A stretch of DNA of 64,000 nucleotides, taken from the NCBI GenBank assembly GCA_007996965.1, contig BIMP01000001.1, forward strand, positions 682,001 to 746,000, in the 5' to 3' direction. The notes under the pieces were generated by a model. The model was given only the letters and a program-made list of their open reading frames with translations. It ran no database searches and had not been told where the DNA came from. A program made the translations under genes and the position numbers. Source of the stretch: a cyanobiont of Ornithocercus magnificus. GTDB lineage: Bacteria; Cyanobacteriota; Cyanobacteriia; PCC-6307; Cyanobiaceae. Positions 61,052-64,000 of the stretch are shown piece by piece. Positions within the stretch are counted from its first letter, which is position 1; each line of letters begins with the position of its first letter.

Positions 61052-62434
61052 ATGGGTTTTCGGTTGCTGCATTTGCATTTGCATGGTCTGCTCCGTGCCC
61101 ATGACCTTGAGCTTGGCCGTGATGCCGATACTGGAGGTCAAACCCTTTACGTACTGGAATTAGCTAGGAGTCTGGCCTCCCGATCTGAGGTTGACAAAGT
61201 TGAGGTGGTTACACGACTAATACAAGATAGCCGGGTTTCCCGCGACTATGCTCAAACAAGAGAGCAAATCGCGCGAGGTGCAGAGATTGTGCGATTGCCT
61301 TTTGGTCCTCATCAGTATCTGCGCAAGGAGCTCCTTTGGCCATACCTCTCTGATCTTGCTGATCAGCTCGTCAAGCGCTTGCAAGATTCTCAAGCTTTTC
61401 TCCCTGATTGGATCCACGCCCACTATGCTGACGCTGGCTATGTAGGTGCTCTTGTAAGTCAGCAACTTGGGATTCCGTTAGTCTTTACCGGACATTCCCT
61501 TGGGCGTGAGAAGCAACAGCGACTCTTAACAGCTGGCGTTGATCTTAAGCAGATCGAAAAGTCCTATGCTATCAGTCGCCGAATCGATGCTGAAGAATTA
61601 GCACTAAAGCAATGCTCTTTAGTAATTACAAGTACCCAGCAAGAGCTAGAAGAGCAATACTGCCGGTATAGTTGCTTTGAATTTAGTAGAGCTGCAGTAG
61701 TTGCACCAGGGGTTGATACCAAGCGCTTCTACCCACATTCTGCACCAGAAGAACTGGCTGATATTGACAGATTGATGTCTCCTTTTCTTCGCCAGCTGTC
61801 GCAGCCACCACTACTGGCAATCTCCCGGGCTGTTCGTCGCAAGAATATTCCAGCTTTGCTCGAGGCTTACGGTCAATCCCCCCTGCTGCGCCAGCGCCAT
61901 AACCTAATCTTGGTCTTGGGCTGTCGAGATGATACCCATCAGATGGATAAGCAGCAGCGGGACGTCTTCCAGCAAGTATTTGAGCTAGTCGACCATTACA
62001 ACCTTTATGGCAAAGTTGCATATCCAAAGCATCATCAACGTACACAAGTTCCCTCAATCTATCGCTGGGCTGTGCATCATCGCGGACTATTTGTTAATCC
62101 AGCTCTCATTGAACCTTTTGGACTTACCCTACTTGAAGCTGCAGCCTGTGGTCTACCGATGGTAGCAACAGATGATGGCGGCCCTCGTGACATTTTAGCC
62201 TGCTGTGGCAATGGACTACTAACAAATGTGACTAACCTTAAAGCTCTTCAGGGTACTCTAGAGCAGGCAGGCACTAATAAACAACGCTGGCACCGCTGGA
62301 GCAATAATGGTATTGAGGCAGTTAAGAGGTGCTTTAGCTGGGATGCCCATGTCTGTCGCTATCTAAAGCTTATGCAGTACAGGCAAAGTCGTAGCTATTT
62401 ACCCGTCTTGATTAGATCAAAAGCTGCCGCCTAG
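61052..62434 (+). CDS. sps: Sucrose-phosphate synthase, glycosyltransferase domain only
   Basis: It transfers glucose from a nucleotide sugar to fructose-6-phosphate for sucrose, a compatible solute. The 460-residue GT4 protein has LHLHGLLRAHDLELGRDADTGGQ, the family start, HAHYADAGYVGA, FTGHSLGR and the donor site LIEPFGLTLLEAAACGLPMVATDDGGP. Some cyanobacterial proteins have about 700 residues with a fused phosphatase-like domain; this one ends after the transferase. Nothing coding follows for 317 bp. Its phosphatase would have to be elsewhere. Confidence 0.93.
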   Translation: MGFRLLHLHLHGLLRAHDLELGRDADTGGQTLYVLELARSLASRSEVDKVEVVTRLIQDSRVSRDYAQTREQIARGAEIVRLPFGPHQYLRKELLWPYLSDLADQLVKRLQDSQAFLPDWIHAHYADAGYVGALVSQQLGIPLVFTGHSLGREKQQRLLTAGVDLKQIEKSYAISRRIDAEELALKQCSLVITSTQQELEEQYCRYSCFEFSRAAVVAPGVDTKRFYPHSAPEELADIDRLMSPFLRQLSQPPLLAISRAVRRKNIPALLEAYGQSPLLRQRHNLILVLGCRDDTHQMDKQQRDVFQQVFELVDHYNLYGKVAYPKHHQRTQVPSIYRWAVHHRGLFVNPALIEPFGLTLLEAAACGLPMVATDDGGPRDILACCGNGLLTNVTNLKALQGTLEQAGTNKQRWHRWSNNGIEAVKRCFSWDAHVCRYLKLMQYRQSRSYLPVLIRSKAAA

Positions 62435-62752
62435 GCTTGATAATCTTCATGGCTGAGCCAATCTTGCATAAGTCAATGTAGCTTGTAGTAGCTTAAGGCA
62501 ATGCAATAGAGTGATAAAAGTATTTCATAGGGCTTTGCTTACACGAAACTCGGCTATTATCAATGCTACAGTTTTTTATACTGCTTGTGGTCGGAACCAA
62601 GATTAATCTGTTAGTCCCCAGGGTTAACCACATGAGAATAATGACTTTGCAATCTGAGCTACTGGCATCTGTACCATCGTTAACTCCATCCGTGCTTTAG
62701 TGGAGAGGGATTTGCTCAGACTGCCAGAAGTGAGAATCGAGATCTGCCCTCT
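62435..62752. other. Gap after sps
   Basis: About 318 bp with stops in all frames; only short open runs. I saw no remnant of a phosphatase-like domain and no strong hairpin. It should contain the promoter of the small membrane ORF at 62753. Confidence 0.45.
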
Positions 62753-62914
62753 ATGGTAAAGATTCTTGGATTTAGTACCACTGGTGACATTGACAATGAT
62801 TTATTGCTTGGTCTAGATATCGTATCCTTGCAAAAGTGGGTAGTCCTTTACCTAGTAATCTCAGTACTCGCATTTGCGCTTGTCTGGCTAGTTGGTACCT
62901 TGCGGCAACGCTGA
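62753..62914 (+). CDS. Candidate 53-residue single-helix membrane protein
   Basis: An ATG at 62753 opens a 53-codon frame to TGA at 62912-62914. It has a short acidic start (TTGDIDNDLLLGLD), then one clear transmembrane helix (WVVLYLVISVLAFALVWLVG, about 29-48) and a basic end LRQR, a topology that suits a small membrane subunit with the C terminus inside. It is too short to be found by common length cut-offs. It could be an accessory subunit of a thylakoid complex, but no family is recognised. Confidence 0.6.
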   Translation: MVKILGFSTTGDIDNDLLLGLDIVSLQKWVVLYLVISVLAFALVWLVGTLRQR

Positions 62915-62921
62915 ATGAATC

Positions 62922-63173
62922 TTAAGGATCTAGATCAGGGATAAGGTTTAGCTGTCGTGCTGATGTCTCCTCACTAATAAAACCCCAAGCATTGAAGATA
63001 TCTTGATCTGGGTGGACAATATGCTGTAGACCTTGTCTCTTTTCAAGTCGGAATCCCCCGCTGCTCATGCGTCGCATAAGCCTAGCTGCCTCCTCAAAGC
63101 GTGATGCCATTGCCTCAAGGCTCTTACAGTCACTGGTCAGTCCAGTATCTTTCCAGGTGAAGTAACTGCCCAT
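62922..63173 (-). CDS. Small conserved cyanobacterial hypothetical protein, 83 residues
   Basis: It starts MGSYFTWKDTGLTSDCKSLE, followed by MASRFEEAARLMRRMSSGGF and HPDQDIFNAWGFISEE. The compact helical-plus-strand make-up and well-formed ends say it is a real gene. I recall similar short proteins next to mraY in related genomes but no function. It is 9 bp downstream of the mraY stop on the same strand, so probably cotranscribed. Confidence 0.8.
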   Translation of the reverse strand: MGSYFTWKDTGLTSDCKSLEAMASRFEEAARLMRRMSSGGFRLEKRQGLQHIVHPDQDIFNAWGFISEETSARQLNLIPDLDP

Positions 63174-63182
63174 AGCAGATGG

Positions 63183-64000
63183 TCAGGTAGATGGACGCAG
63201 CAGTAGCCCAATCAGCACCAGGCTACCTGTCATTGCCCAAAAGCCTTGTACCACCCTCTGTTCGCAGACACCTCTAAGCTCGAAATGGTGGTGTAGTGGA
63301 GCCATGCGAAGCAAGCGATATCCAAAACCGTCAATTTTCTTGGTGGCCTTGAACACACATACTTGAAGGATTACGGACATTGACTCCACAAAAAAGACCC
63401 CTCCCATGACAAGTAAGGGCCAGAGACTATCAGAGAAAAGAGCAATGCCAGTCAGTGCACTTCCCATGGCCAGGGAGCCAGTATCGCCCATAAATACCTT
63501 TGCAGGAGCACAGTTGTGGATAAGGAAACCTAACCAAGCGCCTGCCATTGCCATGCTAAATCCTGCGATGGCGGGGTCACCACCATTACCCCGCAGTATC
63601 AGTTGTAGAGCCAGTCCTGTAAATACTAAGGCCCCGCAACCACTGGCTAGTCCATCAAGGCCATCAGTTAGGTTAGTTGCATTGCTCTCGGCAATGAAGA
63701 CCAGAAGGGCAAATGGCCAAAATAGCCAGCCAATATCTAGGCTTAAGTTCCATGGAAGACTAATAGTTGGACTAATCCAACCTTGTGCAGATGACCAACT
63801 AAGGAAGAATACAGCAGTAGCTACTTGCAGCAATAGCTTACCGCGTGGAGTTAAGCCAGCGTTGGTACATCGTATAAGACTAAGTAGGTCATCTAGTCCG
63901 CCAATTACCATAGCAGCAAGCGTGACTGCTACTAGGCCAAGCACCTGAGCACTACTATGGCCAGCAAAACTCGTCAAACTACCAACGATAGTACCAACCG
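63183..64000 (-). CDS. mraY: Phospho-MurNAc-pentapeptide transferase, C-terminal part
   Basis: MraY makes lipid I by joining UDP-MurNAc-pentapeptide to undecaprenyl phosphate at the membrane. About 272 residues are in the window; the N-terminal part lies beyond 64000, since the frame stays open to the edge ([13 protein letters not shown]). It is a multi-helix protein with [15 protein letters not shown], the active DD-region seen in [20 protein letters not shown] and the diagnostic [14 protein letters not shown]2, MurB and MurC in the window belong to the same pathway. Confidence 0.97.

Follow-up and report, generated by a model that had tools for sequence, protein, structure and literature searches.

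A conserved gene for a 53-residue single-helix membrane protein in picocyanobacteria, a candidate accessory subunit of a membrane complex

The window analysed here is a stretch of 64,000 nucleotides from a cyanobiont of Ornithocercus magnificus. A short open reading frame near its end (positions 62753-62914, + strand) is very probably a genuine gene. Judged from its relatives, it is a vertically inherited, conserved picocyanobacterial coding gene. Its annotation is sound and ordinary in kind. We predict, with a probability of about one half, that the encoded protein is an accessory single-helix subunit or a stabiliser of a larger membrane complex. The features that are relevant to this prediction are the following.

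61052-62434, + strand: sps, the upstream neighbour, glycosyltransferase domain of sucrose-phosphate synthase (TIGR02472, E 8.1e-212)
62753-62914, + strand: the small gene, encoding a 53-residue single-helix membrane protein (frame, homologues, and purifying selection in 79 relatives)
62768-62788, + strand: N-terminal motif (G/A)-F/Y-S/T-T-x-G-D, residues 6-12, on the predicted outer side (lumen or periplasm) (column conservation)
62837-62902, + strand: transmembrane helix, about residues 29-50, with the conserved face S37-F41-W45-G48 (AlphaFold2, conservation periodicity)
62903-62911, + strand: basic tail, residues 51-53, with conserved R51, on the predicted cytoplasmic side (column conservation)
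62922-63173, - strand: orf83, the convergent neighbour of 83 residues, conserved and without a named family (homologues in relatives)
63183-63998, - strand: mraY, a syntenic neighbour which runs off the end of the window as an open frame (TIGR00445, E 5.8e-70)

In the list of open reading frames, the small gene has 53 codons, from the ATG at 62753 to the TGA at 62914, and this ATG is the first start codon past the upstream stop. An earlier, sequence-only reading had proposed a 53-residue ATG-to-TGA frame with one strong helix. The frame is as described, a single stretch of the protein (about residues 29-50) is strongly hydrophobic, and one helix is predicted, so that this proposal was borne out. 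The basic C-terminal end, which had also been pointed out, is present in the window copy (RQR). It is, however, not a feature of the family, as the Prochlorococcus-type copies have PWD or PWE at this end. The length of the frame is uninformative by itself because frames that long abound in the window (the last 8 kb contain 68 frames of at least 30 codons); conservation is the test.

When the window protein was used as the only query, 14 of 60 relatives matched, including the genome of origin, and the 13 others did so at 33-55% identity (E ≤ 0.01). The copy from a relative, used as a second query, matched 142 of 201 Cyanobiaceae genomes. A 23-row profile found a copy in 153 of the 222 Cyanobiaceae genomes that are at least 95% complete (own genome included), which is about two thirds of the genomes and covers 27 of 31 genera. 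Among the matches listed in the second-query and 222-genome searches, there is one copy per matching genome. One genome has an additional, weak match (G005:C1:351428-351532, E 7.5e-4, class-level search), which is located inside a frame of 155 residues and is possibly a distant paralogue or a chance match. The copies from genus g5 match over the helix only and, in the two loci fetched, are encoded on the same strand as orf83, which is the reverse of the usual arrangement. They are counted as family members with less certainty and might represent a different gene.

Outside of Cyanobiaceae, profile A1 detected nothing above chance level in 173 genomes. The underlying class-level search covered 194 genomes (21 Cyanobiaceae and 173 others, a split inferred from the order of the list), 140 of which had no match; 19 of the 173 matched at E ≤ 0.1, compared to about 17 expected by chance, with a best E-value of 0.0024. 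Thirteen loci with weak matches were inspected; most are fragments of a longer frame, of an unrelated one or of a frame that is repeated (G249 has 16 copies). The locus with an E-value of 0.0024 (L059) is a free-standing short frame with similarity confined to the helix. Two genomes of another family have a homologue of orf83, and no relative of the small gene was found near it. Phage records, searched with one query, gave no match at E ≤ 1. None of the titles and abstract beginnings listed by the literature searches names the family, which may nevertheless have been published, as a text search cannot find a sequence.

Selection was measured with 79 named loci, which were collected with a Synechococcus/Cyanobium-like alignment and hence represent that side of the family. 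Synechococcus sp. WH 5701, a strain in culture, is among the carriers of the gene (locus L150). The median dN/dS is 0.28 among the 1879 of 3081 pairs that have 0.05 < dS < 1 (the other 1202 pairs being left out, and pairs being non-independent as they share ancestry). Only 0.16% of these 1879 pairs have a dN/dS of at least 1. Over all pairs of the 79 loci, differences at the first, second and third codon position number 31852, 19768 and 65614, so that third positions change most. For the window copy, we infer such selection from the family, the measurement having been made in its relatives. The sequence-only reading had made its case depend on the conservation of the frame in relatives. This conservation was found, with a homologue kept in 153 of 222 genomes and with dN/dS well below 1. 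Both marks of a conserved small protein are present, namely purifying selection (measured in relatives) and a gene order that is shared across species.

The gene order is as follows. Among the genes searched for, purT (divergent), the small gene and orf83 (convergent) are encountered in this order in 76 of the 79 named loci. One of the three exceptions has purT on a contig which ends before orf83; in the other two, the closest upstream gene among those searched for is uvrA or sps. Thus, orf83 adjoins the small gene in 78 of the 79 loci, and purT is its neighbour in 77. For one copy, the purT name is backed by a Pfam match (PF21244, E 5.7e-22). Neither purT nor a remnant of it gave a significant match anywhere in the window (best E 1.4). 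A gap of 318 bases (62435-62752) follows sps and may be a former purT site. On the other side, 7 bases separate the stop codons of the small gene and orf83. The latter had been considered a small orphan gene, which does not hold: in a class sample of 59 genomes that includes the own one, this 83-residue protein has homologues in all five Cyanobiaceae and in 2 of the 54 others. Sequence identity is 58-65% in the four other Cyanobiaceae and 37% in the two genomes of another family. It has no Pfam match, and its one NCBIfam match (E 0.16) is at chance level.

A synteny check in the vicinity of mraY, which the sequence-only reading had suggested, was made and placed the small gene near mraY, on either side, in most of the lineages fetched. 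In the longer Prochlorococcus-type form, the gene is found across mraY from its usual site, next to a gene for a 73-residue membrane protein, in all nine loci fetched (L075-L083, chosen from 20 loci). In eight of these nine, those whose contig reaches it, argG is also adjacent. The 73-residue protein (L075:5676-5897 in one of these loci) has no Pfam match. Also beside mraY is a gene for a 101-residue DUF3134 protein (L075:5347-5652; PF11332, E 2.8e-23). In six genomes (G001, G010, G021, G028, G061 and G074), the copy is located elsewhere and the mraY block is intact; five of these six relocated copies are of the shorter form that ends in PWD or PWE. A gene of the Pfam family PSII (PF00421) was observed 2-3 kb away from two of the relocated copies, at L085:4863-5957 (E 1.9e-33, 364 residues) and L086:2929-4014 (E 3.5e-34, 361 residues); Pcb antenna proteins are of this length. 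A scan for NtcA, HLR1 and Pho-box sites with five patterns (one strand, 260 bases upstream) found a site in 0 of 89 sequences.

The small gene has been lost in g18, a genus with small genomes and a G+C content of 32%. The 153 genomes matched by the profile and the 142 matched by the second query include no member of g18, and a profile search of six g18 genomes at E ≤ 10 gave chance-level matches only (best E 0.066). All four g18 genomes that were searched for mraY have kept it without the small gene. In two mraY regions of g18 (L197 and L198), 36 and 9 bases lie between the alignments of sps and orf83, and in both, the stretch from argG to the DUF3134 gene holds the counterpart of the 73-residue membrane protein. 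As both usual sites are filled in these two regions, loss rather than misplacement is indicated. Three other genomes (G006, G030 and G071) have no match at E ≤ 10, and three more (G002, G008 and G014) have weak matches only (E 0.23-0.61); G002, G006 and G014 are less than 90% complete. The losses in g18 and in a few other genomes argue against indispensability and suggest that the subunit would be accessory, not core. The loss in one genus is also a natural experiment.

From the single sequence, AlphaFold2 predicts one helix (residues 7-52), with a mean pLDDT of 97 for residues 31-40 and 95 for residues 41-50; the first two ten-residue blocks have values of 54 and 66. Column conservation was computed from an alignment of 185 rows, which contains many repeated loci and 108 distinct sequences. 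Among the distinct sequences, the helix columns W45 (0.98), G48 (0.90), F41 (0.85) and S37 (0.72) are conserved, as is R51 (0.78), which is beyond the stretch used in the periodicity test. In the N-terminal motif, D12 (0.93) and T9 (0.75) stand out; the short Prochlorococcus-type copies do not have this motif. Of three residue intervals that were the analyst's choice, two have their strongest conservation periodicity at 100 degrees (shuffle p 0.004 and 0.0024), while in the third, 180 degrees is slightly higher (0.38 vs 0.37; p at 100 degrees 0.0106). L31 (0.90) and G35 (0.81) are well conserved, yet they are off the favoured face. At positions 35 and 38, the window copy has V, unlike most relatives, which have G and S there. 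One kept helix face points to a docked helix, as such a face would not be required in a plain lipid anchor. The arginines at the C-terminus and the acidic residues on the N-terminal side suggest an N-out/C-in topology according to the positive-inside rule.

We thus propose that the N-terminus of the small protein would face the lumen or the periplasm and that its arginine-bearing C-terminus would be on the cytoplasmic side. The S37-F41-W45-G48 face would pack against a helix that belongs to a larger membrane complex, and the packed helix would stabilise or tune this complex in the manner of NdhP, NdhQ and further accessory subunits of low mass. The role would be that of an accessory subunit, since loss is tolerated. 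A thylakoid complex is our first guess, for the sole reason that such complexes contain many of the known small one-helix proteins of cyanobacteria. More tentatively, the protein could be a subunit that is confined to picocyanobacteria, belongs to a membrane complex of photosynthesis or respiration, is new to solved structures, and is dispensable where one streamlined genus lives. Marine and freshwater picocyanobacteria account for a large share of aquatic photosynthesis, and their complexes are largely inferred from those of other cyanobacteria. A conserved lineage-specific helix would be a tangible candidate for an additional subunit of the picocyanobacterial complexes.

The conserved face only implies that the protein binds something in the membrane. 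The partner might instead be a membrane protein outside of the photosynthetic apparatus, such as a transporter or an oxidase, with the small protein acting as its regulator. KdpF and CydX are examples of small regulators of membrane proteins, and the anatomy is the same. However, no identified neighbour points to a target, and we consider such a role rather unlikely, though it is the strongest of the alternatives.

The small protein might also be the diverged picocyanobacterial version of an already known small subunit, either of NDH-1 (NdhP or NdhQ) or of a photosystem. The window protein matches no Pfam or NCBIfam family at curated cut-offs and no PHROG family at a low E-value. For 23 relatives, scattered matches only were obtained, with best E-values of 0.0017 (Pfam), 0.0068 (NCBIfam) and 0.036 (PHROG). 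The absence of the family from these three libraries illustrates that genes of 50 codons escape them; the small gene is worth adding to family libraries and to the search sets used in proteomics. In the PDB, no chain was found at E ≤ 10 with the single sequence or with profile A2. Profiles A1 and A3 gave an insignificant match to chain N of 8ydm, a hypothetical protein (E 0.85 and 0.9). Beta chains of purple-bacterial light-harvesting complexes were observed recurrently and at insignificant levels, three of them at E 0.28-0.77 with profile A4 and one at E 1.9 with A1. PsbX from this genome (39 residues), the sole control and a lenient one as it is a well-conserved subunit, matched 15 distinct PDB sequences, with a best E-value of 1e-13. 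The NdhP and NdhQ chains of the solved NDH-1L, the entries of which are named in the accessible part of PMC6992706, are assumed to be in the PDB library; no match confirmed their presence. A known subunit would fit the size class and the predicted topology, which are those described for NdhP in the available text of PMC4131877. This identity is nevertheless improbable, as no significant PDB match was obtained by sequence or with profiles A1-A4 while the PsbX control was found, and as the family is not above chance outside of Cyanobiaceae and has no match in g18.

As the gene is close to mraY, on one side or the other, in most of the lineages fetched, the small protein might have a cell-wall role and act on MraY. 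The gene and mraY are on opposite strands, however, both in the window and in all fetched loci but those of g5. Six genomes have the gene elsewhere while mraY is still in its block, and the four g18 genomes searched have mraY without it. A function in connection with MraY is, therefore, even slightly more doubtful than that of a known subunit. A type I toxin-like hydrophobic peptide would share the size, the single helix and the basic end, but it is very improbable given the single copy per matching genome (among the matches listed), the fixed gene order in most loci, and the phage records, which gave no match to one query at E ≤ 1. A chance frame without a product, to which the many frames of this length in the window might point, is refuted for the relatives by homologues, purifying selection and synteny and is equally improbable for the window copy.

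The preferred reading, an accessory single-helix subunit or stabiliser, can be compared to several known systems. PsbX and other low-mass photosystem II subunits are of the same size class and also have a single helix. PsbX differs in that it has no match to the small protein, and the true PsbX is encoded elsewhere in this genome. When compared to the light-harvesting beta chains, about 20 residues of the helix align (pattern L-x-x-x-G...LVW; A4 columns 26-45). The match is, however, insignificant. The histidine of the beta chains is a chlorophyll ligand; it falls on F41, so that no pigment site is implied in the small protein. Psb34-type one-helix assembly factors, which are small accessory proteins of cyanobacteria according to the available part of PMC9458560, are likened to it by description; the small protein has no Pfam or NCBIfam match. 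NdhP and NdhQ occur in Thermosynechococcus (PMC4131877) and are described as early acquisitions in cyanobacterial history (PMC12038448), each as far as the accessible text of the source goes. Their chains, assumed to be in the library, have no significant sequence match to the small protein. As far as these two partial sources cover it, they are present in distant cyanobacteria, whereas the small protein was seen only in part of Cyanobiaceae. Both this distribution and the failure to match a solved chain count against NdhP and NdhQ. Of the resemblance to small photosynthetic or NDH subunits that had been proposed from the sequence, an identity with these two subunits is disfavoured, and the anatomy would fit in general terms (single helix, predicted N-out/C-in topology, one more conserved face). 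NdhP and NdhQ, too, have a mass below about 5-6 kDa and one helix, and the lumenal N-terminus predicted for NdhP in the available text of PMC4131877 matches the topology predicted here.
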